The notes under the pieces: model-generated
Seen by the model: the letters and a program-made list of their open reading frames with translations, nothing else
Database searches by the model: none
What the model was told of the DNA's origin: nothing
Shown here: positions 1 through 64,000 of the stretch, piece by piece
Layout: the number at the start of each line of letters is the position of its first letter
Position numbering within the stretch: position 1 is the stretch's first letter
Position numbers and translations under genes: made by a program
Assembly (NCBI RefSeq): GCF_002257665.1
Contig: NZ_MQWB01000001.1
Location: 1,779,954 to 1,843,953 of the forward strand
Length of the DNA stretch: 64,000 nucleotides
Direction: 5' to 3'
From: Rubricoccus marinus
GTDB lineage: Bacteria > Bacteroidota > Rhodothermia > Rhodothermales > Rubricoccaceae

Positions 1-255
1 GGCACCACCTTCGAGCACTTCCAAAAGATGTCTGACGACGCCCTGACGCAGGACCCGGAGACCGGAGAGCCCGTCGAGCGCGTGATCTCCGGTGGCGCCG
101 GCCTGCAGTTCAAAGGCTCCGGCTTCTACCTGACGGACTACGTCAAGAAAAGCGGCGGCGAGGACAAGAAGGCCTCTGGCGACGCGAAGCCGGCCAAGGC
201 AGAAAAGGCCACCGCGAAGCCCGCAGCGAAACCCAGCACGAGCAGCTCCGACTAG
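1..255 (+). CDS. FmdB-like regulatory protein, C-terminal part (5' end outside window)
   Basis: The reading frame is open from base 1, and the visible residues GTTFEHFQKMS lead into VERVISGGAGLQFKGSGFYLTDY. That is the conserved C-terminal half of the FmdB/putative zinc-ribbon family. The N-terminal zinc-ribbon half lies off the window. Family members usually carry a second Cys-x-x-Cys just before this block; here the equivalent stretch reads TQDPETGEPVERV with no cysteine, so zinc binding may be lost. The tail is Lys/Ala/Pro-rich and low complexity. Function of the family is poorly defined. A hairpin at 330-364 follows the stop. Confidence 0.75.
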   Translation, partial: GTTFEHFQKMSDDALTQDPETGEPVERVISGGAGLQFKGSGFYLTDYVKKSGGEDKKASGDAKPAKAEKATAKPAAKPSTSSSD

Positions 256-303
256 AGACCGCGCGCGTCCGATGTAGCCTGGACGCGTTGCTCGCCGTGC
301 ACC

Positions 304-319
304 GCCAGAGGCCTCTGGC
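304..319. repeat. Palindromic pair of the 9-mer motif at a convergent gene junction
   Basis: GCCAGAGGCCTCTGGC is a perfect 16-bp palindrome made of two overlapping copies of the window-wide 9-mer. It lies between the ends of two convergent genes (255 and 384). Confidence 0.9.
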
Positions 320-329
320 GCACAAGCAA

Positions 330-364
330 AGCGCCCACCTGGAGATCCGGGTGGGCGCTGTTTC
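330..364. terminator. Bidirectional hairpin terminator candidate
   Basis: AGCGCCCAC (330-338) pairs with GTGGGCGCT (351-359). A T-rich run follows on the plus strand and TTTGCTTG follows on the minus strand. It sits between two convergent genes, so it could stop transcription from both sides. Confidence 0.6.
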
Positions 365-383
365 GTTCGGCGGACGCCAGAGG

Positions 384-1052
384 CTAGTCGCGGAACTTCT
401 TGATCCAACCGTCAGCCTTCTTAGCGACGACGCCGGTCACGGCGACCTTGACGGCGTCGCTCATCACGTCGGCGAAGTCTTTCGCCTTGTCGACGCCTTC
501 CTCGGCGGCTTCGCCTGCGCGCTCAGCGACGTGCTCGGCGGCTTCCTTCAATGCGACCGCGGCGGCAGCCAGGGCTGCTGCGGAGGCGGTTGCGGCGTCG
601 CCAGCGGTGTGCTTGGCTTCGGCGTACGATCCTTTCGCCTGCTTCTGAAGCACCTTCGCGCGCTTCTCGACGCGCTCGGTCAGGGTCGGAGGCTCAGGAT
701 CGGGCGACATCGCGATAAGCAAACGACCGACTACGAGGCCGACGCCGCTGGCGGCGAGAAGCGCCAGGCCGGGGTGCGCCTCTGCCCACTGCTTCACCTT
801 CTCGACGGGGCTGTCGCTCGCGTAATCGTCGGGCATCTCGTATTCCCCCGGCGTAGGCATGGCGACGCGGCCTGGAGCGGGCGAGGCTGAGCCAGAAACG
901 GCCTGCTTGGCAGGCTCAGCCGAACCGGTGGGCACAACGGGAGCGGTATCGGTAACGGGCTCGGGGCCGCCAGCCGTCTTGTCGGAGCCGACGTTGGCGC
1001 GGTCCGCGAGAGGCTCGTCGGTGGAATCGGTGTTGGGGTTCGAAGTGGCCAT
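384..1052 (-). CDS. Ala-rich single-pass membrane protein with long amphipathic helix
   Basis: The 222-residue protein starts at ATG 1052 (MATSNPN); the open frame runs further upstream but that part looks like shadow coding. The first ~95 residues are a Pro/Ser/Thr/Glu-rich, probably disordered segment. One hydrophobic segment follows (LALLAASGVGLVVGRLL). The C-terminal ~100 residues are an Ala/Lys/Glu helix (AEAKHTAGDAATASAAAL) like apolipoprotein or YtxH/DUF883-type stress proteins. The GxGLVxGRLL pattern recalls the DUF883/ElaB membrane anchor, but the order differs (anchor in the middle). No enzymatic motif is visible. It is probably an inner-membrane-tethered structural or stress protein, and this is only a guess. 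Confidence 0.6.
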   Translation of the reverse strand: MATSNPNTDSTDEPLADRANVGSDKTAGGPEPVTDTAPVVPTGSAEPAKQAVSGSASPAPGRVAMPTPGEYEMPDDYASDSPVEKVKQWAEAHPGLALLAASGVGLVVGRLLIAMSPDPEPPTLTERVEKRAKVLQKQAKGSYAEAKHTAGDAATASAAALAAAAVALKEAAEHVAERAGEAAEEGVDKAKDFADVMSDAVKVAVTGVVAKKADGWIKKFRD

Positions 1053-1297
1053 GGTGAGAGGGAGAGTTCGGAGATGGGGGCCCTTGGGAGGGCGGTAAAA
1101 GGTGGTACGCCATCTCTCTCGGATCGTTTCTCGAAGAGCGTGCGTGATGCCGTACGCCTCGGCGAGAGCAGGCCTACCGAAGGCATAGAGCCTGTCTCGA
1201 CGCGCCAGAGGCCGCGCGGGGCTCTTGCGCGAGGTGTCGCGCAACGTGACCGAATGGAGCGGCTGACTCGTAGATTGCCGAATCACCGGTCCCGCTC

Positions 1298-3529
1298 ATG
1301 CCTTCTCGTACCTACGTCGCACAGCGCCCCGGCGCCTTTGGAGGCCTTGTCCAGGCGCGGGACCTCGCGGGCTACCAGTTGGAGGCCCTCCCGTCGGTCA
1401 ACATCCGCGATTACTACTTCGACACGGAGGACGCGGAGTTGCTGCGGCAGGGCATGTGCCTGCGCGTCCGCGAGCAAGGCGGCGAGCGGCGCGCCCTTCT
1501 GCGTGGCGTCCGGCCGGACGACCCGAGGCTGGAGATCGAGGCGACCCTGGACGGCCCGCACACCGAGGTGTTCGACACTCCCAGAGGACTGCTCCATGAA
1601 GCGCTCGAATCGCTCGTCGGCGGTAGCGCGCCGGGACTGGTGGAGCCGTTGCATCCCCTGATCCGATTCCGGCAGTACCGCACCCCCCGGATGGCGTACG
1701 ACGGCACCCGCCTTCTCGGCCTGCTCTCGTTCGACGTGGTCGTGATCGAGTTGCCCGAGGGGCCGTACGCGACCAACGAATTGGACATCGAGCTATCAGA
1801 CGCGGGGCACGAAGCCGACCTGTACGCCCTCGACCCGTTGCTCCGAGAAGGTGGCCTCGTACCGGTCGCGCTTACCAAGTTCGAGCGTGGCGTGATGCGC
1901 CTCCCCCGCTCCTTGACGGAGCCCTTGTTGCTGCTGCCCGACGAGCGCGAGGCGCTTGAGATCCTCGCGGAGTCGGACCAGGCTCTCCACCGCCGCCGCG
2001 CGCGTGTGCTCCTGCTCGACGCCAGAGGCTTCCGCTCGTCCACGATCGCGAACCAGGTCGAACTCAGCACGGCGCGCGTGAGGCACTGGAAGCAGCAATT
2101 CCGGGAACAGCGGATGGCCATTTTCGAGATGCAAACCCGAGCGCCCGCCTCCGACCACCACGCGTACCGCGTGTCGGAGATGATGGCCGGTGGCGCGGAG
2201 GCCGTCGCGCCGGTGGCGATCTCGCCCGACCGCGTCCCCCCGATGGACTCGGCTCCGCGCCCCAAATCTGCGCGCGCCGAGGTTCCGTCCGAGCCCCAGG
2301 CCTCTGGCGACGGCGCCCCCCCGATGCGTCCCGAGATCGCGCTGCCGTCCGGAGAGGTCAGCGACATCGAGGATCTTCTCGCCCTGTTTCAGCCCGGCGA
2401 AACGACGACACCCATCCTCCACGACCCCGTGGACGAAGACGGCGTCCCCGAGCCCGACGCAGAGCCGCACGAGGCCTCTGGCGATGTGGCGGAGCCCGCA
2501 CTCACGGAGCCCGCCGCGACGCCAGACGACCGGGAGAGCGTTCCGGGACTTCGAGTCGAAGCGCCGGAGTCAGCATCGCCCCCAGAAGTACGGCCCTCGC
2601 CGACGGTCCACTCCGTTGCTCGCTCGGCCGTCTCGCCGATCGGGCTGACCGCAGCGGAGACCGCGCCAGAGGCCTCTGGCGACCGGCCCACGGCCCGACG
2701 TCCCCGCATCCAGCCCGACGATTCCATTTTGGAGGCGGCGCTGCAGATCCTCTCGTACCACTTCGGCCAACTCGGGTGGTGCGCGGCAGACCTGGACCGG
2801 CCACGAGGGCCGTTCCGGCTGCTGCTGGCGGTGCACCGCGTCCGCCTTTCGCTGGAGGTCTTCGAGCCCATCTTGCCCCGCGAGACGGTCGAATCGCTGC
2901 ACCGCGGGCTCCGGCGCCTCGCGTACGGACTCAACCACACGTTCGACCTCGAACGACTGATCGAAGACAACCCCGGGGATGACGCCATCGAGTTGCGCCG
3001 CCAGAGGTCGCTCGATTCGCTTCGCACCGTTCTCCAGGGCCACTCTTTCGAGTCGTGGATCGGGCGCGCGCAGCGGCTCGTCGAGCGACTGGCGTCCCAA
3101 CAGCGCGCGGGCGTCGAGACGCCAGACGACGCGCCCCACGTGTGGGACGACTACGTCGCGGACCCCGGCGTGATTCCGGGCCGCACGCGGGTCCGCCACC
3201 TGCTCGGCAGCGCGCTCTGGCAACGCATTGAGGCCTTGATCTCCTGGGAAAAGGACGGCGCCGCGCCAGAGGCCGACGTCGCGTACCACCTCGCTTTGGC
3301 TTGCTCCGGCATCCGCTTCGTGCTCGGCATCGCGGAAACCACCGCCCCCGGGCCCGTGCGCCAGGCCGACGCGATCCTGGACCGGGCGGAAGCGCGTCTG
3401 ATGTCGCTGCACCTCTCGCGCGAGACCACGCCAGAGGCCGAGCGCCAACGGGAACTGCACGAAACGTGGGCCGAGCTCCGCGGCCCCGAACTCCGGCACG
3501 CCTTTGCCGAGACGCTCGTCGCGCTCTAG
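1298..3529 (+). CDS. CYTH-HTH-CHAD domain protein
   Basis: 743 residues. Residues ~20-210 form a CYTH/triphosphate-tunnel-like domain (IRDYYFDTEDAELL, LRVREQGGERRALLRG, EIEATLDG, ELDIELSD, VALTKFERG). Residues ~215-275 form a transposase-type helix-turn-helix (RARVLLLDARGFRSSTIANQ, then VELSTARVRHWKQQF). After ~200 Pro/Glu-rich linker residues comes a CHAD domain from ~475 (LLLAVHRVRLSLEVFEPIL, GLRRLAYGLNHTFDLERLIED). CYTH and CHAD domains bind polyphosphate or triphosphates; CHAD proteins associate with polyphosphate granules. The inserted HTH is unusual and suggests a link to DNA or simple module shuffling. The linker carries several in-frame copies of the repeat motif, read as EASGD. The ATG start is at 1298, with no Shine-Dalgarno. 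Confidence 0.8.
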   Translation: MPSRTYVAQRPGAFGGLVQARDLAGYQLEALPSVNIRDYYFDTEDAELLRQGMCLRVREQGGERRALLRGVRPDDPRLEIEATLDGPHTEVFDTPRGLLHEALESLVGGSAPGLVEPLHPLIRFRQYRTPRMAYDGTRLLGLLSFDVVVIELPEGPYATNELDIELSDAGHEADLYALDPLLREGGLVPVALTKFERGVMRLPRSLTEPLLLLPDEREALEILAESDQALHRRRARVLLLDARGFRSSTIANQVELSTARVRHWKQQFREQRMAIFEMQTRAPASDHHAYRVSEMMAGGAEAVAPVAISPDRVPPMDSAPRPKSARAEVPSEPQASGDGAPPMRPEIALPSGEVSDIEDLLALFQPGETTTPILHDPVDEDGVPEPDAEPHEASGDVAEPALTEPAATPDDRESVPGLRVEAPESASPPEVRPSPTVHSVARSAVSPIGLTAAETAPEASGDRPTARRPRIQPDDSILEAALQILSYHFGQLGWCAADLDRPRGPFRLLLAVHRVRLSLEVFEPILPRETVESLHRGLRRLAYGLNHTFDLERLIEDNPGDDAIELRRQRSLDSLRTVLQGHSFESWIGRAQRLVERLASQQRAGVETPDDAPHVWDDYVADPGVIPGRTRVRHLLGSALWQRIEALISWEKDGAAPEADVAYHLALACSGIRFVLGIAETTAPGPVRQADAILDRAEARLMSLHLSRETTPEAERQRELHETWAELRGPELRHAFAETLVAL

Positions 3530-3684
3530 GAATACGAAGCGCGCGTGGACAGGGCCTCTGGCGCGCTGCAATCGCCACGCCGCAGCGCGGCAGTATTCAG
3601 GTACAGTCAAAACCGGAGGTCCCGGCCACGCTTCACCCTCTCGCCATGCGCGGGGGGGACGCGATGGAGTTACTTGCTCATACG

Positions 3685-3705
3685 AGCCCGGGGAAATCCC
3701 CGGCT
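3685..3705 (+). promoter_or_regulatory. Hairpin in the hemH leader
   Basis: AGCCCGGGGA pairs with TCCCCGGCT around an AA loop, with one bulged C. It lies 30 bases before the hemH start in a 205-base leader. It could be a regulatory stem or attenuator. I recognise no known riboswitch class. Confidence 0.4.
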
Positions 3706-5489: not shown

Positions 5490-5507
5490 GCCTCTGGCGC
5501 CAGAGGC
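5490..5507. repeat. GCCTCTGGCGCCAGAGGC palindrome after methyltransferase gene
   Basis: A perfect 18-bp palindrome formed by two inverted copies of the 9-mer. It starts 3 bases after the stop codon and can form a hairpin, so a terminator-like role is plausible. Confidence 0.9.
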
Positions 5508-17143: not shown

Positions 17144-18334
17144 GTGCCCAGTACCCCTCCCGACGCCTCGGTGACCCCTGACCGCCCGTCTCGCAAGAGG
17201 CCGGGGCGCACCACGCGCCAGAGGTCTGGCCGCAAGCCGGAAAAGATCAAGCCGACGTTCAAGGAGAACGTCTCGTTCTGGATCAAGGCGATCGTCGTCA
17301 TCCTGTTCCTGCGGGCGTTCATCTTCGAGCCCTACCGGATCCCGTCGGAGTCGATGGAGGACACGCTGCTGGTGGGCGACTTCCTGATCGTGAGCAAGCT
17401 GCACTACGGGGCACGCACGCCGAACACGATCGGCATCCCGTTTACGCGGATCTACGTCCCCGGCCTCGTTTTCCCGCAGACGCGCCTGCCCGGGTTCTCG
17501 GAGCCCGCCAGAGGCGACGTGGCCGTGTTCAACTACCCGGCGGCGGTCGACGTGGAGCGGGGTGTGATCCCGGCAGACACGCCTATCGAGCGGCGCGCGC
17601 CATACATCAAGCGCATCGTGGCCGTGCCTGGTGACACGCTCGCGATGGTCGACAAGATGCTGATCCTCAACGGCTCGCCCGTGCCCCTCGGTGCGACTCT
17701 GAAGCAGCGCTGGCGCGCCTTCTCGGCCGATGGCGACCGGCCGACCGCTCGCGAGATGCTGGACATGAACGTGCAGTACCTGGAAGGCACGGACGGACAG
17801 GCAGCAGACGGCGTCCGTCAATTCGACATCACCACGACGCCCGGCGGCGCCCAGCTTCTGGCGGCGGACCCCGAAGTCGCGCGCGTGGAGCCGTTCGTGC
17901 TTCCGGACTCGATTTCCTTTAGCGATCCCCGCTTGTTCGACCCGCGCGCGATCGACCTCATCTACGACCCCGCCCTGGCGTGGAACGCGGACCAGTACGG
18001 CCCGCTCGTGGTGCCCGGTGTGGGCATGACCATCGACGTCACCGCCGAAACGATGGAGACTTATGCCGACGTGCTGGAGCAGTACGAAGGCGTCGAGGTC
18101 GCCGAGGCGCGCGGGGGCGGCTACCTCCTCAACGGCGTCGCGCGGGACACGTACACGTTCAAAGCCGACTACTACTTCGCGATGGGCGACAACCGCGACA
18201 ACTCGGTCGACAGCCGCTACTGGGGCTTCGTGCCCAAAACGCACCTCGTAGGCAAGGCCGTCTTCAAGTTCCTGTCGTTCAAGGGCGAGTTCCCCTTTGT
18301 CCGTCCGAGTCGGTTTTTCCGCCCCATTCGCTGA
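17144..18334 (+). CDS. lepB: Signal peptidase I, paralogue 1
   Basis: 396 residues from GTG 17144. It cleaves secretory signal peptides at the inner membrane. There is one N-terminal membrane anchor (ENVSFWIKAIVVILFLRAFI) followed by box B with the catalytic Ser (YRIPSESMEDTLLVGD, Ser ~69), box D with the catalytic Lys (YIKRIVAVPGD, ~156) and box E (GDNRDNSVDSRYWGFVP, ~347). About 185 residues separate boxes D and E, more than in E. coli, so the non-catalytic cap is enlarged, as in many Bacteroidota. It is followed 16 bases later by a second paralogue. Confidence 0.92.
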   Translation: MPSTPPDASVTPDRPSRKRPGRTTRQRSGRKPEKIKPTFKENVSFWIKAIVVILFLRAFIFEPYRIPSESMEDTLLVGDFLIVSKLHYGARTPNTIGIPFTRIYVPGLVFPQTRLPGFSEPARGDVAVFNYPAAVDVERGVIPADTPIERRAPYIKRIVAVPGDTLAMVDKMLILNGSPVPLGATLKQRWRAFSADGDRPTAREMLDMNVQYLEGTDGQAADGVRQFDITTTPGGAQLLAADPEVARVEPFVLPDSISFSDPRLFDPRAIDLIYDPALAWNADQYGPLVVPGVGMTIDVTAETMETYADVLEQYEGVEVAEARGGGYLLNGVARDTYTFKADYYFAMGDNRDNSVDSRYWGFVPKTHLVGKAVFKFLSFKGEFPFVRPSRFFRPIR

Positions 18335-18350
18335 TGGGTAGCGGCGCCCT

Positions 18351-22548: not shown

Positions 22549-22572
22549 CGCGCAAGGTACCGCCCGACGTCC

Positions 22573-22580
22573 CTACCTTC
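22573..22580 (+). promoter_or_regulatory. Original host promoter -7 box of the interrupted tRNA-Leu
   Basis: TACCTTCC ends 9 bases before the tRNA 5' end, the same layout as the tRNA-Phe promoter in this window. After integration it drives only the truncated 5' half. Confidence 0.45.
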
Positions 22581-22589
22581 CGCCGCCCC

Positions 22590-22628
22590 GCCGGGGTGGC
22601 GAAATGGTAAACGCAGCAGACTTAAAAT
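22590..22628 (+). pseudogene. tRNA-Leu(UAA) 5' half left at the left junction (attL)
   Basis: This is the acceptor 5' strand, D-arm and anticodon arm up to the loop (GCCGGGG...ACTTAAAAT), after which the sequence diverges with no T-arm. Its acceptor strand pairs perfectly with the 3' strand of the intact gene at 28661-28745, so the two were once one gene. Bases 22592-22628 are identical to 28663-28699. Confidence 0.85.
22592..22628 (+). repeat. Left 37-bp att direct repeat
   Basis: Identical base for base to 28663-28699. The likely crossover lies within this stretch, probably in the anticodon loop. Confidence 0.85.
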
Positions 22629-22713
22629 AGTCTTCAGGCTCTACCTCACCATATGGCAGAATCGCCCAAATCCTTCGGATTTAGCCGATCCGTTACAGAT
22701 TTCGGGCCTTGCC

Positions 22714-22742
22714 CACTACGATTCGTAGCAATGCCGTAGCAG
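22714..22742. repeat. Left arm-type recombinase site module
   Basis: One inverted copy (CACTACG), 3 bases, CGTAGCA (22724), 4 bases, CGTAGCAG (22735). The two direct copies are 11 bp apart, one helical turn. The same architecture recurs at 28581-28609 inside the right end. Confidence 0.65.
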
Positions 22743-22770
22743 TTTTTGTGCGCTCGCATCCATTTCCCAA

Positions 22771-23832
22771 ATGGCGAGCCTAATCCAGCAAGACGGCCTC
22801 TACTCACTACAGTTCTACAAGGCCGACCGATCCCCGAAGCGGAAGCGCGTCCCGCTCCGCGTACGTGTCAAGCGAGACGCTGAAACGATCCGACGCAAGC
22901 TGGAACGCGATTACTCGGTCGGGACCTTTGATCCGTGGACTGATGATCCCCTGGCTTACGATAGGAAGCCGCTGAAGCCAGAAGGGATTGCGGAGGCTTC
23001 AGAAGCGTTCTTCGATGCCAAGAGCCATAAAGCTTCCCTCACGCTCAAAGACTATCGCAAGGTCATTAGCCGATTCGTGCTCCACGTAGGGCCTAGCACG
23101 CCCGTAGGCCGCGTTACTGCTAAAGACGTGGAAGAATGGCTAGACAGCACTGAGGCGAAGGATGTAACTCGGCACGCCTACTGCCGCAACCTTAAGGTCT
23201 TTTTCCGCTGGGCGCGGAAGGAAGGGCTGACTGACGTTGTAGCGACTGAGAACGTTCGGCTTAGAAAGCTCCCCCGCAAGTATCCGCGCTTCCTGACCCA
23301 CGCTGAGGTTGAGCGCTTTGCAATAACGGTTCGAAGAGAGGCGCGTAGCGTGCAATGGCTAGCTGACTTGGTTGTTTTCGCCTGCCACACTGGATTGAGG
23401 CGGAGCGAGCTAGTCAATCTTCGGTGGGATGCCGTTGACCTCGATAGCGGAATGCTAACCGTTGCGAACACTGAATCTTTTAGGACGAAGAGCGGCGCTG
23501 ACCGAAAGGTCCCTCTCTCCGAAACGGCTAAGGCAGTCCTAGGACGGGTAGAAGCGGCTCCTAACTGCGAATACGTGTTTACGTGCTCCAATGGCAAGAT
23601 CAGCCCCGACTATTTATCTCAAGCCTTCAAGAAATATGCGACCAAGGCTGGGCTCAAGGGAGTACATCTCCATCACACCCGACATACTGCGTGCTCTTGG
23701 CTAGCACAGAGAGGTGTACCGATTGAAGCAATTCGCAGATTCGCAGGACATTCAACCATTACCGTAACAGAGAGATACATGCATCTAAGCGACAGCATGT
23801 TCAGCAGTAGTATTCGTAAAGCACTCGCATAA
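22771..23832 (+). CDS. int: Tyrosine recombinase / integrase of the element
   Basis: 353 residues. It catalyses site-specific integration and excision at tRNA-Leu. The N-terminal ~70 residues are basic and likely bind arm sites. Residues ~80-165 form the SAM-like core-binding domain. The catalytic domain has Arg in TGLRRSELVNL (~209), Lys near SFRTKSGADRKVPLSE, HxxR in HHTRHTACSWLAQRG (~302), the second His in FAGHSTITVTERYMHL (~326), and the Tyr nucleophile in that same block (~335). The set is complete, so it should be active. Its codon use is less GC-biased than the flanking genes. It lies 142 bases inside the left att site, the typical position. Confidence 0.95.
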   Translation: MASLIQQDGLYSLQFYKADRSPKRKRVPLRVRVKRDAETIRRKLERDYSVGTFDPWTDDPLAYDRKPLKPEGIAEASEAFFDAKSHKASLTLKDYRKVISRFVLHVGPSTPVGRVTAKDVEEWLDSTEAKDVTRHAYCRNLKVFFRWARKEGLTDVVATENVRLRKLPRKYPRFLTHAEVERFAITVRREARSVQWLADLVVFACHTGLRRSELVNLRWDAVDLDSGMLTVANTESFRTKSGADRKVPLSETAKAVLGRVEAAPNCEYVFTCSNGKISPDYLSQAFKKYATKAGLKGVHLHHTRHTACSWLAQRGVPIEAIRRFAGHSTITVTERYMHLSDSMFSSSIRKALA

Positions 23833-23892
23833 AAACAAGCACGCACCTATTGATTAACCCAGTGGTGTCTGCACGAACGATACCAGGGCAGC

Positions 23893-23924
23893 GGGGCATC
23901 TTCCACAGAATTGGGAGATGCCCC
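23893..23924 (+). terminator. Hairpin downstream of integrase
   Basis: GGGGCATCT pairs perfectly with AGATGCCCC across a 14-base loop, 60 bases after the integrase stop. No T-run follows. The ATG of a small open frame (23918) lies in its 3' arm, so it may regulate translation instead. Confidence 0.4.
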
Positions 23925-24175
23925 AAATTATGAGGGGGTGGGGGCATTGGACGGTGGGGGGTGCCGCTCTTGCGTTAGACCCTAAAACACGAGGGGGCGT
24001 TAACTCCATCTTGAAACGCGGAGCCTTCCAGCCCCCTCATGCGCCGTTCGAGCAGGGGTTTAGGTCCATCCGTGGTGGTGTCGCCTTAGTGCTAGACAAG
24101 CGCTTAAGAGCTGAGTGGGCAGAGAGTCTACCGACTGCCGCAAGCGAAGCGGCGCGGAGGCTACCCGTCGCTTAG
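23918..24175 (+). CDS. Small open frame in the element, doubtful
   Basis: 85 residues, with two related stretches (GGAALALDPKTRGG and GGVALVLDKRLR) that suggest an internal duplication. I recognise no family. The ATG sits inside a stable hairpin arm and there is no ribosome-binding site. It could be a small regulator such as an excisionase substitute, or non-coding repeats that happen to be open. Codon use resembles the integrase gene, which is the only support for coding. Confidence 0.25.
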   Translation: MPQIMRGWGHWTVGGAALALDPKTRGGVNSILKRGAFQPPHAPFEQGFRSIRGGVALVLDKRLRAEWAESLPTAASEAARRLPVA

Positions 24176-24482
24176 AAGAGACTGATGTGTAAGGGGGAGC
24201 CGAACGTATCGATCACTATCACATTCGATAAGACGGTAAGGAGAACCGTACCAGGAGAGGCGAGCGAGGAAGAAGTCATGCCCTCGGCGCTATTGCCCTA
24301 AGAGTTACCGCGCTCAACCGATGCCGCCAATAGCCGACACAGTCCAGAATACTAGACAATTGTTTTTTGCATGACTTAGGCGAGGCCCCTGCTCGGTGAA
24401 AACGTGTATTTCAGAAGAGCCAAATGGTGGAACGCACATTGCATAGACCGATTGCAGTCATACCCAACACTAGCAGTCCGCT

Positions 24483-26297
24483 ATGCACCACGCTACACCG
24501 AAGAATCGACAGATCGCCGTATCGCGCCAGAGGCCGCAACCCGAAAAGGAAGGGGGAGGCCAAGGGGGAAGGAAGGCAACAGGGACACAAGGAGGAACAG
24601 GGCACCCCACCCCCCAACACAAGGCAGGACGCACCACGCTATGTATCGGTGCTCAACCCGAGCCTCTGGCGCCCAAAATCGCTCCAAAATCGTCCCTAGA
24701 GGTCGATTTAACTACGTCCAACGAGAGCACACCCGCTGTAATAAGTGTACCGAAGCAGCACACTCACGCCACCACTAATACCAAACCGACAAATGACTAC
24801 ACGGAGTACAAACCTCCAAGTACCCGCCCCTACACACGTATACACCAACGTGGTACGGTGCCTAGCGCGTTTCGCGCCCTAGCAATTGAGCGTCACCCAG
24901 AGATAAAGCACAACGCCGACTACGCCCGTCTCTTCGGCGCCTTGCTGAGCCCGAACCACAAAGGCGAGACAAAGGACGGTCGGGCCGCCATCGTTCTCCC
25001 TGGTACTGTTCTCGCAGGCTGTATGGGATCTGAGAGGGAGTACGTCAACGGAAGCCTTGCAGGGGCCGACAGCACAGGAAGCGTCCTTCACCGCTTCAAT
25101 AAAGACGTGTTCGGCGGAGCACTTGTAATAGAGGAGAGCAATTGGGCGGAAGGCTTAGCCAGATGCGTGCCTGTGGACTCCATTGAGGCCTGCATAGACA
25201 AGGACGTTCTTGACGGGTGGGCCTCCCTCCCACTCCCCCATGAGTCTCCAGACCGCGTCTACTTTGATACTGGAGCGGGATTCTCTGCGACAAGTAGGAG
25301 CCGAGAGAGAAGTCGAGCGCGATCCATCCTAGCTGGTAGAGAGGAACCCGAAGCTCACTGCGACTTGGCAGCCCGAGTCGGTCGCTACATGAACAGCTTG
25401 CCTGCTCATTACTTCGAGCGACTGGATTTTGCCCCTGCTGAGGATGCAGCGCGCGCGCTCGACAACCCTAGGGCGGCAGCTGACCAATTGAGACTTCTAA
25501 GGGCGATCAAAGACCAGCCACAGCCGTTCTACGGCTACTCTAGGCACTCGCCCCGAGTCTGGGGCATTGGACAGGCTATTACAGGCTTGCATCACACTGT
25601 GAGACGTGCGTTCATGCCCGATGCCGTAGAGCTTGACCTTAGCTCCGCTCATTTCGCTATCGCCGCGAAGGATTGGGGACTCCCCGACCTATACGACTTC
25701 CTCTCTACAGGTCAGTCCCTGTGGATGCCCCTGTTGGAGCATGTAGGGTTACCGCCCGAACTGAGGTTCAAGAAGGTCGTCAAGAGCGGTAGCTATGGAG
25801 TCGTCTACGGCGCTGGGGAGCGACGGATCATCTCGGATATGCAAGCGGAACACGAAGCGCTCACAGGCTCCCAGATGCCCGCCGAGCAAGCATCCCGACT
25901 CCTTACCCACCCTCTCATTCGGGAGACGCTAGAGGGGCGCACACGAGAGCTTGAGAGCATCCGAGAGGCGATTCGTGACCGTGGCTACGTGCTAGACTGC
26001 TTCGGCAAGCAAATCAGCCGTGGGAAAAACGGCTTCGGCCATGCCAACGAGCGTGACTTTAGCCGTTCCATCCTCGCGCAATTGAATCAGGCTCGTGAGC
26101 TACGGCTCATGGAGCCACTTCTAGAGTTGGCTGAAGCTGAGTCTAGGAAAGCGCGTCCAAACTGGCGAATCGTGCTCTGGCAACACGACGGCGTGAGCAT
26201 TCGAGCAACTAGACGCACAGAAAAAGTTATCGAGCAAATACAGCTCATCTGCCGCTTGCGCAGAACGGACGACTACCCTACACACCTACATGGCTAA
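24483..26297 (+). CDS. Reduced family-A (Pol I-like) DNA polymerase of the element
   Basis: 604 residues as opened at ATG 24483; the true start is unsure because the first ~110 residues are low complexity and contain the only two motif copies in this part of the element. The C-terminal ~250 residues show the family-A palm and fingers. Motif A is VELDLSSAHFAIAAKDWG (Asp ~384). Motif B is FKKVVKSGSYGVVYGAGERR (~429-448) with the Lys and Tyr-Gly of the O-helix. Motif C is VLWQHDGVSI (~566) with His-Asp. No 3'-5' exonuclease motifs (DxE, YxxxD) or 5' nuclease domain are seen. Replication of the element is the likely role. It could also be a primase-polymerase, but no primase motif is visible. It ends 3 bases from a convergent gene. 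Confidence 0.75.
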   Translation: MHHATPKNRQIAVSRQRPQPEKEGGGQGGRKATGTQGGTGHPTPQHKAGRTTLCIGAQPEPLAPKIAPKSSLEVDLTTSNESTPAVISVPKQHTHATTNTKPTNDYTEYKPPSTRPYTRIHQRGTVPSAFRALAIERHPEIKHNADYARLFGALLSPNHKGETKDGRAAIVLPGTVLAGCMGSEREYVNGSLAGADSTGSVLHRFNKDVFGGALVIEESNWAEGLARCVPVDSIEACIDKDVLDGWASLPLPHESPDRVYFDTGAGFSATSRSRERSRARSILAGREEPEAHCDLAARVGRYMNSLPAHYFERLDFAPAEDAARALDNPRAAADQLRLLRAIKDQPQPFYGYSRHSPRVWGIGQAITGLHHTVRRAFMPDAVELDLSSAHFAIAAKDWGLPDLYDFLSTGQSLWMPLLEHVGLPPELRFKKVVKSGSYGVVYGAGERRIISDMQAEHEALTGSQMPAEQASRLLTHPLIRETLEGRTRELESIREAIRDRGYVLDCFGKQISRGKNGFGHANERDFSRSILAQLNQARELRLMEPLLELAEAESRKARPNWRIVLWQHDGVSIRATRRTEKVIEQIQLICRLRRTDDYPTHLHG

Positions 26298-26300
26298 GAG

Positions 26301-27971
26301 CTAACCAGGAATAACAGGACATATGGATATAAATGCGTCCCTTACGCCGCTGCAATGATCCGACGATAGATATCTCATAATTTGCTCCTCATATGACACA
26401 ACACTAAGGCCCAGACCGCTTGCCACTGCATATAACGCACCCTTTTTTGCAGAGTATAGCTTCAACATATTGTCTATATCACCGCTTGCTATATAAGCGT
26501 CTACAGTAGCACTCACATCTTCAATCATTTTGTCCAAATCTACGCTGTTATATACGCTTGCTACATTATGTCTTAGACTATCAGCGTCGGCATGACCCAA
26601 TCCTATGCTTCTGAATTTTTCCCTAACACTAGAAGCAACTGCATTTGCGACTATTCTATCTCTGTTTTCCTTAATCTTCTCCTTGACACCCAATATTATA
26701 TGATCCATAGCTTTAGATGCCTGATCTTTTGTATACGAAGCGCATTCCATGAATGCCTCTATAACCACCCTTGAGACGAGCAAGTTTTCTACCTTATACG
26801 TGTTAATAGCATAGATGCCCTTCGCCTCAAGACTAGATATATCCATATCTGTTCTAAAATCTCTATCTATTATACCAACAGGCTTAAGCCTATGCATATG
26901 GTCCATACCTCTTAAAGTATTTGTATAGTTAATCACACTCCTAGCACCACCCCCACTTGGCAGAACTGTAAAGTCACTATAAACGACTGAGTATATTTTG
27001 TAATCCCAGCTATCATAATCGCCTTCTACTAATACAACAGATTCCCTGCTTCCCTTAACTCTCAGCGAAAGCAATTCTGGGAGTCCATCAACATTATCGA
27101 ACTCTTCCCAGTCCCAAGCCTTCCCATTATATCCTTTTACCCATACATTCACTGCATTCCTTCTTGAAACAGCAAAATCAAGATCATGAGTCACGTACAC
27201 GAACACGCAATCATCTCTTTCGGATTCCAGTAGATCAAAAATTTTGTTTTGTATTACCTTATGAAGATGCAGTTCTGGTTCATCAATTATGATCACAGAT
27301 GACTTCGGGGCGGTCACCACATGGCCTATCAGGTAAAACCCAACCCTTTCCCCATCACTCATATCCGAAGCCCTATAAGACTCCTCTTGCTTGCCATCGT
27401 GTATCACTCTAGGCTCGTTAGATGACATCACAAACTCCTTAAGAGGGAATATAATACTCCACAGTCTTTTAACGTTGTCTAAAAGTGTTTCCGCTGGCGC
27501 TTCCAAAGTCGCATCCTCTTCTAGATTCGTATAACTCTGCAAAAAGTCACTAGCCTTCGCAGTGTAATCTGAATAAAGAACATCTAAAAGCTGTTGATAA
27601 TCATCTAGCGCTCCAACAAAGTAATCACCACCGTACTTGACATTTCTTTTACTTTGATCTAGATTTTTCTTAGTATATGATCTATAAGAACTTAGAGAAC
27701 CGTGTTTTATACTATAATCTAACATTAGACTATAATCAGACTCTTTAGCTAAATGCGTCAGTGTAGGAAACTTTATAGATTTTTGTGCACTTATCCTTTT
27801 GACAATAACATTCGATTGAGCATTTATCTCTATCCATGCGCCCATTCTTGTTTTTCCCGATCCGTTTGCTCCAGTTATCACCACCTGTTTCCCGCTCACA
27901 TCGATCTTGTTATTCGACTGATTGGCAGATGTTGACACGGGAAGCATGATCTCCACAGCACGCTCTGTCAT
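26301..27971 (-). CDS. ATPase-TOPRIM (DUF4435-like) fusion, PARIS-type anti-phage candidate
   Basis: 556 residues. The N-terminal ABC/AAA15-type ATPase has Walker A GANGSGKT (34-41), signature MSDGERVGFYLIG (~205), Walker B SSVIIIDEPELHLH (~225) and an H-loop VTHDLDFA (~260). From ~305 comes a TOPRIM region of the DUF4435 kind: SVVLVEGDYDSWDYKIY (acidic Glu), LPSGGGARSV, VGIIDRDFR (Asp-x-Asp) and YKVENLL. In PARIS systems AriA is such an ATPase and AriB a DUF4435 TOPRIM effector that cuts tRNA; fused one-gene forms are known. An OLD-family nuclease is the alternative. The gene is markedly AT-rich with AGA/ATA codons, unlike anything else in the window, so it is a recent acquisition. It has no copy of the host 9-mer. 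Confidence 0.75.
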   Translation of the reverse strand: MTERAVEIMLPVSTSANQSNNKIDVSGKQVVITGANGSGKTRMGAWIEINAQSNVIVKRISAQKSIKFPTLTHLAKESDYSLMLDYSIKHGSLSSYRSYTKKNLDQSKRNVKYGGDYFVGALDDYQQLLDVLYSDYTAKASDFLQSYTNLEEDATLEAPAETLLDNVKRLWSIIFPLKEFVMSSNEPRVIHDGKQEESYRASDMSDGERVGFYLIGHVVTAPKSSVIIIDEPELHLHKVIQNKIFDLLESERDDCVFVYVTHDLDFAVSRRNAVNVWVKGYNGKAWDWEEFDNVDGLPELLSLRVKGSRESVVLVEGDYDSWDYKIYSVVYSDFTVLPSGGGARSVINYTNTLRGMDHMHRLKPVGIIDRDFRTDMDISSLEAKGIYAINTYKVENLLVSRVVIEAFMECASYTKDQASKAMDHIILGVKEKIKENRDRIVANAVASSVREKFRSIGLGHADADSLRHNVASVYNSVDLDKMIEDVSATVDAYIASGDIDNMLKLYSAKKGALYAVASGLGLSVVSYEEQIMRYLSSDHCSGVRDAFISICPVIPG

Positions 27972-28098
27972 TTTTTATTTTTGCCTCGTTAATGTATTGA
28001 CGGTCGCAGCTGCGGGACTCACCCGCACCAGAGACTCGCTTGGCACAAGTTAGCCTTGAACTACTAGGAAAAGCTCACATCTAGCATGGGCGCAGCCA

Positions 28099-28135
28099 TT
28101 TACACTTGAGCATCTAATTCGACGGGAAGTGTAAA
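28099..28135. promoter_or_regulatory. Inverted repeat upstream of the ATPase-TOPRIM gene
   Basis: TTTACACTT and AAGTGTAAA are perfect complements separated by 19 bases, 128 bases before the defence gene start. This could be an operator or a stem-loop. Confidence 0.4.
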
Positions 28136-28248
28136 GCGTCAACGCCCCGCAAATGCCCCTAGCGGCTTCCTGTGGCGTATTTCGATCCCGCCAGAGGCTT
28201 AACGACTTGAGCGACATTGTAAAGCCGTAAAGTTTTGCGCGAAGCTCG

Positions 28249-28266
28249 GCCTCTGGCGCCAGAGGC
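28249..28266. repeat. GCCTCTGGCGCCAGAGGC palindrome inside the element
   Basis: The only complete back-to-back motif pair within the element, in its right non-coding region. It shows that the motif can enter acquired DNA. Confidence 0.9.
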
Positions 28267-28580
28267 GAACGGGCGGGCCTACTCCGTCCGATGGGTGAAC
28301 TGGGTAGGCTGGGTAGGGCTTGCCCCCTGGTTATGGTTCACGTGCTAGACTTCGGGCTCATGTAGATCTTCGAAGCGATACATTCCCATACTCATAAACG
28401 TCGAATCTAGCCCAATAAGCCCGATTATGCCTGGCCTTTGGCGCTGACCATAGTTACATTCGGGATGTGAGGGACCCCCTGACCTAGCGAGGCACCTGAG
28501 CCCGCTCGATTTGACAACCTGAGCGCACACTACATGACGGCACACGCCCTCTTGCTAAAGTCACAAGTCAAGGGCCGCTG

Positions 28581-28609
28581 TGCTACGGGTCGTAGCAGTA
28601 TCGTAGCAG
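28581..28609. repeat. Right arm-type recombinase site module
   Basis: TGCTACG, 3 bases, CGTAGCA (28591), 4 bases, CGTAGCAG (28602). Spacing and order match the left module at 22714-22742 exactly. It lies 52 bases inside the right att repeat. Confidence 0.65.
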
Positions 28610-28660
28610 CCTAGCACGATCTCCCCTCGTTTGAGGTGGTGAAACGCGCTAGATGCCCCT

Positions 28661-28745
28661 GTCGGGGTGGCGAAATGGTAAACGCAGCAGACTTAAAATC
28701 TGCCGGAGCCTCCGCTCCTTACGGGTTCGAGCCCCGTTCCCGGCA
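28661..28745 (+). tRNA. tRNA-Leu (anticodon UAA), reconstituted at the right junction
   Basis: 85 bases, class II tRNA with a long variable arm. Anticodon TAA is at 28694-28696, T-arm ACGGG-TTCGAGC-CCCGT, acceptor 3' strand TCCCGGC plus discriminator A; CCA is not encoded. The acceptor 5' strand GTCGGGG gives a G-U wobble at position 2, where the abandoned left half (GCCGGGG) would pair perfectly. The 5' half therefore came from the element. A -7 box at the expected distance is not seen (TAGATGCC at 28650 is too close), though TTTGAGG at 28630 could be a -33. Confidence 0.93.
28663..28699 (+). repeat. Right 37-bp att direct repeat
   Basis: Identical to 22592-22628. It ends in the anticodon loop of the intact tRNA-Leu. 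Confidence 0.85.
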
Positions 28746-61014: not shown

Positions 61015-61060
61015 GTGCGGTGGACGCGGCAGAGCTGGCGTGGGTCCCGTTACCCTCCGG

Positions 61061-61522: not shown

Positions 61523-61740
61523 GTCGCTCGAAGGAAGTGCGGGTGAGGGAGGGGCCGAGGCCGAAATGAAGTCGGCCAGACAGTCATTGAGGTTACCGCC
61601 GGCGCACCCGAAAGGCAAGATGACCCACGGGCGCGCTGAGGAGACCGCCATCGTCCTCGCGAGTTTCTCTCGCGCCGCCAGAGGCCGGAACCCGCGGGCG
61701 GCATCGTGCCGTCCATGCCCCGCCCCGCCCCCGATCTGCC

Positions 61741-62517
61741 GTGACTCTCCTTAGCGTCAACCTCAACAAAGTCGCCCTCATGCGGAACGCGCGGGCCGGG
61801 ACCCACCCCGGGCCTCTGGCGCGCCCGCGCGTGGAACGCGCCGCCGAAGCGGTGCTGGACGCGGGCGCTTCGGGCCTGACGCTGCACCCCCGCCCGGACC
61901 GCCGTCACGCCCTGCCGGAGGACGCCTATGCCCTCGCGCGCATCGCGCACGCCAGAGGTGTAGAGCTCAATTTGGAGGGCAACCCGTTTTCGGCCCCTGG
62001 CGAGAGCTACCCGGGGTTCGAGTCCCTCCTGCTGGACATCGGGCCGGACCAGGCCACACTTGTGCCCGACGCGTCGGACCAACGGACGAGCGACCATGGG
62101 TGGGACCTCGCGCGAGACGGGGACCGGCTGGCACCCATCGTGCGCCGGCTGAAAGAGCGCGGGTGCCGGGTCAGCCTGTTCGTAGACCCCGTGGGAGATT
62201 CCATCCGCCGCGCCGCGGACGTGGGCGCGGACCGCGTCGAACTCTACACCGGCCCGTACGCCTGGGCCGCCGCTTCCGGTGACGCCCGCGAGGAGTTGGA
62301 CCGCCACGCCGCGGCCTCCGAGACCGCCAGAGGCCTGGGCCTGGGCGTCAACGCGGGCCACGACCTCGATCTCACCAACGTCGGGATGTACGTGCAATCG
62401 GTCCCGGGCGTGCTGGAGGTATCAATCGGGCAGGCGTTGGTCTCGGACGCTCTGGAGATGGGGTGGGCACGCGCGGTCTCAGCCTACGTCGACGCGCTCA
62501 CCGGGGCCTCCGCGTAA
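61741..62517 (+). CDS. pdxJ: Pyridoxine 5'-phosphate synthase
   Basis: 258 residues from GTG 61741. It condenses 1-deoxyxylulose-5-phosphate with aminoacetone phosphate in the last step of pyridoxine phosphate synthesis. The TIM-barrel shows LSVNLNKVALMRNARAG (start), GLTLHPRPDRRHALPEDAYA (substrate binding His/Arg), VELNLEGNP, VSLFVDPV and GLGVNAGHDLDLTNV (catalytic His ~202). The length is normal. A hairpin (62517-62544) touches the stop. Confidence 0.93.
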   Translation: MTLLSVNLNKVALMRNARAGTHPGPLARPRVERAAEAVLDAGASGLTLHPRPDRRHALPEDAYALARIAHARGVELNLEGNPFSAPGESYPGFESLLLDIGPDQATLVPDASDQRTSDHGWDLARDGDRLAPIVRRLKERGCRVSLFVDPVGDSIRRAADVGADRVELYTGPYAWAAASGDAREELDRHAAASETARGLGLGVNAGHDLDLTNVGMYVQSVPGVLEVSIGQALVSDALEMGWARAVSAYVDALTGASA

Positions 62518-62544
62518 CAATTCCGTTCCGGCCGGAAGAATTGT
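62517..62544 (+). terminator. Hairpin at the pdxJ 3' end
   Basis: ACAATTC with TTCC pairs to GGAA with GAATTGT, a 28-base inverted repeat beginning on the stop codon. It is followed by CCCTTCTCGCTTC. The rest of the 188-base gap holds no gene. Confidence 0.55.
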
Positions 62545-62705
62545 CCCTTCTCGCTTCGGTACGAGCCGCTCTCTCAGCCTGAGACCCAGGCGAGCTTGGA
62601 CGGCGCCAGGGGCATTTTGGTGTTCCAATTCGGGATCGCATCGCCCGCCAGAGGGCGTCGGCATAGAGGTGGCGTGAGGCCTCAGCACGCCCCGCACCTC
62701 TCCCG

Positions 62706-63242
62706 ATGCAGCAAACCATTCTGGCCCTCGCCGCCATCCTCATCTTCTCGCTCTACACCCTCAGCCGTCACGAGTCTGACGCGGGGCTGGAGCGGATCTC
62801 GATCACGGCCGAGTACGAGACGGCCGCAGCCGGTTTGGCCCGCGCCCGCCTCCACGAGATCCAGCGCCGCGCGTTCGACGAGGCCGATGTCGGACGTGAT
62901 GGAATGCGCTCCTCGACCCAGGGCCTCACGCCCAGCAACCAGTTGGGCCGCGAGGCCGGCGAGACGAACGAGAGCAGCTACGACGACCTGGACGACTTCA
63001 ACGGGATCGCCCGTCCCGTCTCCGCCGAGCGCAACGGGGAGACGCTGAGCTTCCGCGATTCCGTCTCCGTCCGCTACCTCGACCCCTCGGACCCGACCGC
63101 GAGCCCAAACCGGTCGCTCGCAAAGGAGATCACGGTGATCGTCACCGCCGTCCCGTCGGGCTACATCGGCAAGGCTCCTGTGATGGCCCGCCTGCGCCGC
63201 GTCGTAACGCCCGCCTCTGGCGCGGCTCACACCACCAACTAG
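62706..63242 (+). CDS. Membrane-anchored pilin-like protein of unknown function
   Basis: 178 residues. The N terminus is one helix (MQQTILALAAILIFSLYTLS) followed directly by a polar helix (AEYETAAAGLARARLHEIQR), as in pseudopilin-like proteins, then a soluble domain (RNGETLSFRDSVSVRYLD, EITVIVTAVPSGYIGKAPVM). No prepilin peptidase site is present. The next gene begins 10 bases later and has the same architecture, so they form a cluster that runs off the window. Confidence 0.65.
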   Translation: MQQTILALAAILIFSLYTLSRHESDAGLERISITAEYETAAAGLARARLHEIQRRAFDEADVGRDGMRSSTQGLTPSNQLGREAGETNESSYDDLDDFNGIARPVSAERNGETLSFRDSVSVRYLDPSDPTASPNRSLAKEITVIVTAVPSGYIGKAPVMARLRRVVTPASGAAHTTN

Positions 63243-63252
63243 TCCCGCACCC

Positions 63253-64000
63253 ATGCAAGCCATCTTCGACCATCTGACGGCGATTCTCGTGGGGGCCACC
63301 CTGCTGGGCGCGCTCCTGTTCGTCCAGATGCGGCAGCATCAGGCCGCTATTGAGACGGTCGTCCACGACCGCGCGCAAGAGCACGCCGGTTCCTTTTTCG
63401 ACACCGCGCAGCGCGAGATCGAGAACATCCGCACGCGGCAACAGGCGCAGGCGGGGATGGGCTACTACATCATGGACATCGAGGGGACGGCGGCGCGCAC
63501 CGACCGCTTCACCTTTATCACGAGCGAACCTCCGCCCGCCGGGTCCGCGACGTCGGTGGAGCACTCGCTAAAGGCCGTCTCTTACGTACTTCGCGAGACC
63601 GGGGACTCCGTCCGCGTGGGGACCTCCAAGCGCGCGACCTACCGCGTCGAGCGCTGGACCAACCAGGTGGACCCGGCCACCTCATCTGCGCCCGCCGGCT
63701 TCACGTTTGCAGGCGTCATGGCCGTGGACGTGGTCACGTTCGTCGTGCGCGCTTACGACCGCAACAACGCGCTCCGGACGTGGGCCGGCACCAGCGGCGG
63801 ATACGGCCGCCCGGGCTCCACGTGGTCCGCCAACGACCCCGTCCGGTACGAGATCGAGATCGAGACCGCCGCCAAAGCGCCTGACATGCGGGCCGGCGAC
63901 CAAAAGTCCACGTCGCAGCAAAACCTCGTGCGCGTGGCGCACAGCATCCGCCCGGTGAACTCTGGCGCGACGGGGAGCAGCACGGTCACTGGACCTAGCG
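63253..64000 (+). CDS. Membrane-anchored protein, partial (runs past window end)
   Basis: At least 249 residues from ATG 63253, open to the end. It starts with a helix (MQAIFDHLTAILVGATLLGA), then QMRQHQAAIETVVHDRAQEH as a polar helix and a beta-rich domain (YYIMDIEGTAARTDRFTFIT, FAGVMAVDVVTFVVRAYDRN). Architecture matches the preceding gene, suggesting two related components of one envelope or pilus-like apparatus. The family is not recognised. Confidence 0.7.
   Translation, partial: MQAIFDHLTAILVGATLLGALLFVQMRQHQAAIETVVHDRAQEHAGSFFDTAQREIENIRTRQQAQAGMGYYIMDIEGTAARTDRFTFITSEPPPAGSATSVEHSLKAVSYVLRETGDSVRVGTSKRATYRVERWTNQVDPATSSAPAGFTFAGVMAVDVVTFVVRAYDRNNALRTWAGTSGGYGRPGSTWSANDPVRYEIEIETAAKAPDMRAGDQKSTSQQNLVRVAHSIRPVNSGATGSSTVTGPS

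Follow-up and report, generated by a model that had tools for sequence, protein, structure and literature searches.

Uptake signals for self-DNA are known from two proteobacterial families, the Neisseriaceae (DUS) and the Pasteurellaceae (USS). In the portions of the literature on which we draw, neisserial DUS form dialects between related species, and the highest DUS density given by Frye et al. 2013 is 5,918 copies in 2.4 Mb (PMC3630211); inverted DUS often lie close together in Neisseria, and Treangen et al. place DUS in more divergent regions and describe them as missing from recently acquired genes (PMC2397512). For USS, the corresponding excerpt gives 500-800 copies per Mb for the Hin-type and ~200-500 per Mb for the Apl-type (PMC12616744). 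With the exception of one group, most cyanobacteria have 300-2,700 copies of the word HIP1 per Mb, according to the cited part of the source; in some cyanobacteria other words take its place, together with a methyltransferase specific for the word concerned (PMC4390886). For Bacteroidota and Rhodothermales we found no description of uptake sequences in the open-licence literature, and no record of natural transformation of Rubricoccus marinus in the literature examined; a search of open-licence literature for the words reported below gave, among the matches listed, titles on unrelated subjects. Here we analyse a 64-kb stretch of the R. marinus genome (the window) together with the whole genome and its relatives, and describe a ten-base word, GCCTCTGGCG, which we regard with a probability of roughly 60% as a putative self-DNA uptake signal, the counterpart of DUS and USS in the Rhodothermales (Bacteroidota).

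Abundance of the word

A preliminary description of the window had reported, by eye, a 9-mer (GCCTCTGGC) that saturates the chromosome, with about 33 copies in the first 10 kb, in both orientations and both within and between genes. The exact count for the first 10 kb is also 33, and the window holds 197 exact copies on its two strands (Table 1), compared with a mean of 1.64 and a maximum of 5 in 100 dinucleotide shuffles of the same sequence. With an order-3 Markov background estimated from the window, 5.2 copies would be expected for the 9-mer and 2.3 for the 10-mer GCCTCTGGCG; the latter is present 193 times. The final G is nearly fixed, i.e. 193 of the 197 9-mers extend to the 10-mer, and the preceding base is mixed (G 98, C 58, A 31, T 10); the best unit is the asymmetric 10-mer, not the 9-mer.

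Saturation extends to the entire genome, with 14,385 copies of the 9-mer (7,161 on the + strand and 7,224 on the - strand; 97 + 98 for the pattern read backwards) and 14,176 of the 10-mer (7,049 + and 7,127 -; ~3,200 per Mb), for which the backwards-read control gives 24 + 37 = 61. Neither a near-Markov count nor an enrichment limited to the window was seen, and the word lies, as uptake sequences do, far above expectation, chromosome-wide and on both strands. About 3% of the 4.4 Mb R. marinus genome is made up of this one species-specific word (14,176 x ten bases, overlaps ignored). Among the 114 Rhodothermales genomes searched the enrichment is confined to R. marinus; the 10-mer reaches at most 99 copies in any of the 113 others, which rules out an order-wide trait.

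Different words in related genomes

Counting in related genomes, as the preliminary description had proposed, showed that relatives have words of their own. GCTGGCGG is common to the same-genus genome G001 and to G007 from another genus, where the pattern GCTGGCGGW occurs 4,450 and 3,738 times (1,014 and 1,198 when read backwards). In three further genomes of the family, CCGAGGCGG is found 4,084 (G004), 3,300 (G006) and 2,523 times (G008), against 459, 241 and 304 backwards. Under an order-4 model, GCTGGCGG is raised 3.7-fold in G001, and CCGAGGCGG 4.9-fold in G004 and 4.1-fold in G006; G008, with 10 kb in the scanned sample, was judged by its whole-genome count. Two genomes of one genus have different words and one bacterial family at least three dialects, and dialects in related species are a mark of uptake sequences. 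The relatives' words are weaker than that of R. marinus. In samples of 28-33 kb from G002, G003 and G005 no comparably abundant word was seen. One word of G005, with 8-12 copies, resembles a local tandem repeat; genome-wide, G003 has a modest excess of CCGAGGCGG (338 vs 111 backwards). Of 80 single loci from other lineages, five exceeded the listing threshold, with 6-10 copies each.

Scarcity in putatively acquired DNA

The two widest copy-free gaps of the window (22,307-24,526 and 24,662-28,190) lie over an integrase island, which is taken as acquired because it has an integrase and a low G+C content. On the main scaffold C1 the 9-mer occurs once per 278 bp (540 kb sample), and on the side scaffolds once per 1,533 bp (C10), 947 bp (C11), 2,581 bp (C14) and 8,571 bp (C15). 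Like the island, these four scaffolds probably represent acquired or plasmid DNA, and the scarcity in recently acquired DNA that characterizes uptake sequences is found in all of them. Two 18-base inverted pairs had no match in viral_contigs, a result that excludes only perfect pairs there.

Table 1. Features of the 64-kb window
Feature	Position	Strand	Remarks
Field of 9-mer GCCTCTGGC copies	1..64000	98 +, 99 -	193 extend to the 10-mer GCCTCTGGCG; within and between genes
First 9-mer copy, example of a single copy	172..180	+	
Inverted pair with two-base overlap (-+, offset 7), GCCAGAGGCCTCTGGC	2665..2680	both	8 such in the window
Abutting inverted pair (+-, offset 9), GCCTCTGGCGCCAGAGGC	5490..5507	both	12 such in the window
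Motif-poor island	22549..28660		5 copies in 6.1 kb vs 192 in the other 57.9 kb
Tyrosine integrase of the island (PF00589)	22771..23832	+	
Fused AriAB-like (PARIS) defence protein of the island	26301..27971	-	no 9-mer inside
tRNA gene	28661..28745		directly after the island

Strand orientation and recombination

The preliminary description had considered a recombination target as well. If the word were a Chi-like site, RecBCD would read it while resecting ends and switch to recombination, the copies would protect the chromosome and the dialects would track changes in RecC. The search for RecC (PF04257) was positive in five of five genomes and, among 14 control genomes, in E. coli alone; because of its presence this reading keeps some plausibility. 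The word of G001 and G007 is also one base off the E. coli Chi word, GCTGGTGG, and the poverty of the side scaffolds and the island in R. marinus copies would likewise agree with it. However, Chi is directional and skewed, with 31 leading vs 9 lagging copies in our E. coli control (four 50 kb stretches, 200 kb), and no such leading-strand bias is seen in R. marinus: 1,152 of 2,367 copies are co-oriented with the GC skew, a skew that is itself weak and from which the replication arms were inferred. Word orientation and GC skew show a weak negative correlation (-0.36, 29 stretches), and local strand skew is absent from R. marinus (chi-square 14.2 on 28 df, 28 stretches) as well as for the words of G001, G007, G004 and G006. 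Scaffold C11 of R. marinus is skewed in word orientation. Moreover, the word, with one 9-mer in 278 bp, is ~18 times denser than Chi in E. coli (one in 5,000), and it shows inverted pairs and an intergenic preference, neither of which we know as a feature of Chi. The missing skew thus opposes a recombination target in spite of RecC, and we regard it as unlikely.

One form of the modification target that the preliminary description also named would be a HIP1-like sequence, which DNA methylation coupled to biased mismatch repair would create and maintain and which would play no part in uptake. Density and replacement by other words are similar. HIPs are palindromic, however, and the R. marinus word is not: the nearly fixed G after the 9-mer has no counterpart in the mixed base before it, and its tolerated one-base variants are asymmetric. 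Contiguous asymmetric targets of 9-10 bases are unusual for methyltransferases, which also argues against this explanation and makes it, in our judgement, rather improbable.

Placement within and between genes

In the R. marinus sample, coding DNA contains 1,499 copies of the word, compared with a mean of 63.8 in synonymous-codon shuffles (~23-fold; the gene calls come from a simple GC3-based ORF picker and not from a trained gene finder), and all six codon frames are raised. A coding artefact is ruled out by the shuffles together with this spread over six frames. About half of the sampled AGA codons (254 of 496) and 444 of 1,108 TCT codons fall inside the word; whatever its function, its shares of the genome and of the AGA codons call for explanation. 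Copies are about three times denser between genes (8.31 per kb) than within them (2.76 per kb). The words of G001, G007, G004 and G006, the genomes covered by the codon-shuffle test of the dialects, also exceed the shuffles in coding DNA and are denser intergenically.

Neighbouring copies within 40 bp lie far more often on opposite strands than on the same strand, both in R. marinus (378 vs 57) and in its relatives (83 vs 5 in G001, 15 vs 4 in G007, 26 vs 2 in G004 and 14 vs 2 in G006), and the inverted pairs prefer certain spacings (offsets 9 and 7 in R. marinus). Such pairs could mean that copies are selected to fold as hairpins, acting as terminators or as nucleoid or structure sites, and the density of single copies is indeed 13.7 per kb where genes converge, compared with 7.0 per kb where they diverge. 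Yet the majority of copies are unpaired (the 378 opposite pairs stand among 2,206 copies), 260 of the 456 opposite pairs within 60 bp overlap coding DNA, and the orientation of the adjacent genes is nearly irrelevant, with 0.479 inverted pairs per intergenic region between convergent, 0.463 between co-directional and 0.500 between divergent genes. As inverted pairs are equally frequent between divergent genes, the terminator role of the neisserial pairs is not reproduced; no T-run was found by eye in the 12-14 bases flanking the 20 tightest pairs of the window. Selection for hairpins is therefore a poor candidate for the origin of the word.

Word sites in the congener G001

Of 182 word copies of R. 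marinus aligned to G001, the only genome in this test, one is identical in the congener (alignments of <250 columns and overlapping ones were dropped; a smaller first test had comprised 96 sites for G001 and 50 for G007). Ungapped identity is 0.639 at word sites vs 0.776 at random 10-mers, a figure that leaves out 71 gapped sites, and 39% of word sites are gapped vs 12% of random 10-mers. At 27 of the 182 sites a G001 word is found no more than 15 columns from the R. marinus word (7.1% for random points), which is consistent with common permissive spots. G001 retains the hexamer CTGGCG at 17 of 132 sites located within the R. marinus word vs 33 of 134 outside; as retention is not raised inside the word, there is no sign of a direct conversion of an old GCTGGCGG into GCCTCTGGCG.

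A short repeat spreading selfishly by copying and inserting itself, the last proposal of the preliminary description, could account for the very high copy number in one species alone, for the excess of gapped sites and for the 13 of 182 sites at which seven, eight or all ten bases are missing from G001. It is very improbable, since only 6 of the 182 lack all ten bases, as whole-unit insertion of the REP-like kind would require, copies lie inside ORFs in six frames, the flanks show no longer unit that is conserved (information <=0.19 bits within 8 bases) and relatives have thousands of copies of different words.

Competence genes and a candidate receptor

Among the proposed functions, uptake fits best, in pattern only: dialects, absence of skew, inverted pairs, permissive sites, and an island and side scaffolds poor in the word. 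ComEC was found in 10 of 10 genomes searched (including R. marinus, G001 and G004, with G006, G007 and G008 outside the search) and DprA in 5 of 5; as both are also frequent in the control genomes (10 of 14 and 11 of 14), they carry little evidential weight. A secretin is present in 9 of 9 genomes searched, and in R. marinus a secretin/T2SSE cluster lies on scaffold C1 at 690-700 kb. For T2SSE there was no match in G001, despite its strong dialect; the G001 contig with the secretin ends ~4 kb upstream, so that the missing T2SSE may be an assembly gap. The search for canonical pilins (PF07963) gave two in R. marinus, which both lie on scaffold C11; none was found on its main scaffold or in G001, G004, G006 and G007. 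Two neighbours in the cluster are pilin-like in predicted layout only: the models P0001 (99% identity to the R. marinus protein; mean pLDDT 90.9) and P0041 (a homologue in another genome, with 91% identity; mean pLDDT 87.3) both combine a long N-terminal helix with antiparallel strands. Neither had a significant Foldseek match in the PDB (best E 0.15 and 0.046), and 'pilin-like' therefore refers solely to the order of helix and strands.

In an uptake system of this kind, free DNA would be bound at the word by a receptor on the cell surface, which probably belongs to the secretin/pilin-like machine; this DNA would pass through the secretin, ComEC would import it and DprA would hand it over to RecA. 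Word-bearing alleles would be taken up more often than word-less ones, and we propose that copies accumulate for this reason wherever the sequence tolerates them. A shift in receptor preference could then let a new dialect spread. We see even odds that a family of Rhodothermales represents a third independent origin of self-DNA recognition and the first in Bacteroidota, with species-private words, a record density in R. marinus, a putative receptor on a non-canonical pilus machine and word switches that would act as sexual isolation barriers between sister species. If uptake is the correct reading, this system would be the first beyond the two proteobacterial families, and the trait would have had a third origin, this time in a different phylum. 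Sequence-specific DNA receptors of a new class would then be indicated, and receptor bias versus benefit as the cause of word spread would become testable in a new group.

Comparison with known systems

With DUS, the R. marinus word shares an asymmetric ten-base unit, thousands of copies and dialects, as far as the cited text of PMC3630211 describes them, and close inverted pairs, permissive sites and scarcity in acquired DNA, following the excerpt of PMC2397512. Unlike DUS, it belongs to another phylum, has another sequence and exceeds the densest DUS given in the former source; its inverted pairs show no concentration downstream of genes, and the search for canonical pilins found none on the main scaffold. 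USS, in the cited part of PMC12616744, are likewise short, abundant words with dialects, but the R. marinus word differs in sequence and has four to six times the density of Hin-USS. HIP1, as presented in the excerpt of PMC4390886, matches it in density and in its replacement by other words in some species, whereas HIP1 is palindromic and tied to orphan methyltransferases and the R. marinus word is asymmetric and abundant in one of 114 genomes. With Chi (RecBCD) it has in common the presence of RecC and the resemblance of the G001/G007 word to the E. coli sequence; in contrast to Chi, the R. marinus word lacks replication skew, is far denser, prefers intergenic DNA and forms inverted pairs.

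Abundance of the word in window and genome

Exact matches to the 9-mer GCCTCTGGC number 197 in the window, split 98 to 99 between the strands, whereas 100 dinucleotide shuffles yield 1.64 on average. The preliminary description had counted by eye about 33 copies in the first 10 kb and noted that copies lie in both orientations; the exact count for this part is also 33, and the even strands bear out the second observation. As 193 of the 197 copies are directly followed by G, this base belongs to the unit, and the resulting 10-mer GCCTCTGGCG (hereafter the word) exceeds an order-3 Markov expectation in the window 82-fold, compared with 38-fold for the 9-mer. Rubricoccus marinus SG-29T, isolated from seawater, is a marine member of Rhodothermaceae, Bacteroidetes (PMC5609423). 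By IleS, the closest relative with a name is a Rhodothermaceae metagenome genome, at 71%. In the R. marinus genome (4,430,441 bases in 15 contigs, with the window on a scaffold of 3,954,487 bases) we counted 7,161 + 7,224 copies of the 9-mer and 7,049 + 7,127 of the word, i.e. about 3,200 per Mb for the latter, so that the supposed saturation of the chromosome is indeed a whole-genome enrichment. Over 540 kb sampled from the main scaffold, the 9-mer occurs once per 278 bases. All of 124 sampled 5 kb segments contain the 9-mer, as do 381 of the 460 called genes that are 300 bases or longer. A comparison with related genomes, also proposed in the preliminary description, places the enrichment in R. 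marinus: in 113 further genomes of the order the 10-mer reaches at most 99 copies, in G001, a genome of the same genus, which also has the highest 9-mer count (136, with 283 for the reversed control) among 118 other relatives.

Coding context

The abundance of the word as a by-product of codon use is ruled out by synonymous-codon shuffling: the coding DNA of a 624 kb portion of the main scaffold contains 1,499 copies compared with a mean of 63.8 after ten shuffles, and the enrichment (3- to 85-fold) extends over all six codon frames, in which the word reads as Ala-Ser-Gly, Pro-Leu-Ala, Arg-Gln-Arg, Pro-Glu, Ala-Arg-Gly and Leu-Trp. Of the rare codons, 254 of 496 AGA and 444 of 1,108 TCT lie within the word. 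With coding and intergenic DNA of the same 624 kb separated by a simple ORF picker, intergenic DNA carries 8.31 copies per kb and genes 2.76 per kb.

Orientation and inverted pairs

As to orientation relative to replication, which the preliminary description had suggested mapping, plus and minus copies are even on the main scaffold, with no replication-type skew; scaffold C11 is exceptional in that its copies are skewed between strands. Of the 2,367 copies of CCTCTGGCG in 29 stretches along the main scaffold, 1,152 run with the local GC skew (correlation over the stretches, -0.36), and the two putative replication arms, defined by the sign change of a weak GC skew, hold plus and minus copies at 544:530 and 654:639 (summed over stretches). 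Within single stretches the strands are balanced at least as evenly as random placement would give (chi-square 14.2 on 28 df). For comparison, four 50 kb stretches of E. coli hold 31 Chi sites on the leading strand and 9 on the lagging strand.

Where two copies lie within 40 bases of each other, they mostly face opposite ways (378 opposite vs 57 same in R. marinus; offsets peak at 9 and 7). The corresponding ratios for the words of four relatives, described below, are 83:5 (G001), 15:4 (G007), 26:2 (G004) and 14:2 (G006); inverted pairing is thus common to all five genomes despite their differing words. Paired DUS, the uptake sequences of Neisseriaceae, act as terminators in Neisseria (PMC2397512); the R. 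marinus pairs differ in that they show no concentration downstream of genes.

Different words in related genomes

G001 lacks the R. marinus word and has one of its own, GCTGGCGG, with 418 copies in 192 kb compared with 62 (order-3 model) or 112 (order-4 model) expected; genome-wide, GCTGGCGGW occurs there 4,450 times vs 1,014 times read backwards. The same word is used by G007, of another genus of the family (3,738 vs 1,198 read backwards; genus and family placements are database labels). Three further genomes of the G007 genus, G004, G006 and G008, contain CCGAGGCGG in 4,084, 3,300 and 2,523 copies (reversed controls: 459, 241 and 304), and G003 shows a modest excess of it (338 vs 111 read backwards); word counts in G002 and G005 revealed none of these words at scale. 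Words and genus labels are therefore discordant, with two words in one genus and one word in two genera. Over codon shuffles, coding DNA is enriched about fourfold in the G001/G007 word and about threefold in the G004/G006 word; in all four genomes the density is higher between genes than within them, and no local strand skew was found. Around the G001 word (loci L101-L120 and L129) we observed preferences beyond the 8-mer, namely C six bases before, often A/T right after and T at +14, which may reflect codon context or a longer motif. Separately, CGTGCACC and overlapping words recur on the Cloacimonadota contig L053, 6-7 times in 13.9 kb where 0.1 would be expected; this is probably a local repeat.

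Word-poor DNA and origin of the copies

An integrative island in the window (see table) holds 5 copies in 6.1 kb. Low counts are also found on the smaller scaffolds: 91 copies in 139 kb (C10), 169 in 160 of 168 kb (C11, where one 20 kb stretch with 51 copies is at about chromosomal level), 31 in 80 of 90 kb (C14) and 7 in 60 of 65 kb (C15). The T2SSE matches on C14 and C15 are VirB11-sized, which suggests that these two are conjugative plasmids.

Features of the window and of the main scaffold C1
Feature	Position	Strand	Remarks
Two consecutive signal peptidase I genes	window 17144-19511		family model matches each in two separate stretches
Integrative island	window 22771-28745 (about 22.5-28.7 kb)		tyrosine integrase; tRNA gene at edge; G+C down to 0.50
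604-aa protein of island	window 24483-26297	+	no Pfam or PADLOC match
Fused AriAB-like PARIS defence protein of island	window 26301-27971	-	
Secretin/T2SSE cluster	L263:6215-16006 (C1, 690-700 kb)		secretin, T2SSE ATPase, several unnamed conserved proteins

In a 63 kb alignment to G001 covering 182 R. marinus copies, only one is identical in G001. Ungapped identity is 0.639 at copies vs 0.776 at random 10-mers, and 39% vs 12% of the sites are gapped. All ten bases are missing from G001 at 6 of the 182 sites, which disfavours insertion of a whole unit, and seven or eight bases at 7 more. One-base variants are enriched (T4 to G, 242 copies; G7 to T, 98; G1 to A, 93; C3 to T, 93), with little variation tolerated at positions 2, 5, 8 and 9. 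From these alignments and variants, the copies occupy fast-evolving spots and look mostly like products of substitutions and small indels.

Candidate uptake machinery

ComEC was found in 10 of 10 genomes searched (a set that includes G000, i.e. R. marinus, G001 and G004, and none of G006-G008), DprA in 5 of 5 and, within the family, a secretin in all 9 genomes searched; control genomes contained ComEC in 10 and DprA in 11 of 14 cases. G001 has the secretin and gave no T2SSE match; the contig that carries the secretin stops roughly 4 kb upstream of it. In the R. marinus secretin/T2SSE cluster, three unnamed proteins start with a hydrophobic stretch. T2SSE occurs a second time, together with T2SSF, at 207-211 kb. 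Two cluster proteins, neither recognised by Pfam, were modelled via a 99% identical entry and a 91% identical homologue. Both models have an N-terminal helix (48 and 60 residues) followed by antiparallel strands, which is the layout of type IV pilins, and the proteins are predicted to be pilin-like; Foldseek returned no significant match for the models. Named homologues of two of the cluster proteins are few (Bacteroidota metagenome genomes, a Rubricoccaceae bacterium and a Rubrivirga), and a 3,860,468-base contig of another genome codes for close homologues of two cluster proteins (P0002, P0041). Scaffold C11 (L147, L177) has its own secretin, T2SSE and two N_methyl pilins, apart from the C1 cluster.

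Interpretation and comparison with known systems

Taken together, the word is a candidate uptake signal, a reading to which we assign a probability of roughly 0.6, because it is saturating, asymmetric, unskewed, denser between genes, arranged in inverted pairs, thin in acquired DNA, located at permissive spots and different between sister species. The best rival is a Chi site read by RecBCD, since all 5 genomes searched contain RecC and the G001 word resembles E. coli Chi; the missing strand skew and the density of the R. marinus word speak against it. Closest in density is HIP1, with up to 2,700 copies per Mb (PMC4390886), but HIP1 is palindromic and the R. marinus word asymmetric. The combination of features listed above for the word is characteristic of uptake sequences, as known from Neisseriaceae and Pasteurellaceae. 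For the Neisseriaceae, Frye et al. describe eight DUS dialects and a highest density of 5,918 copies in 2.4 Mb (PMC3630211), a value exceeded by the word in R. marinus.
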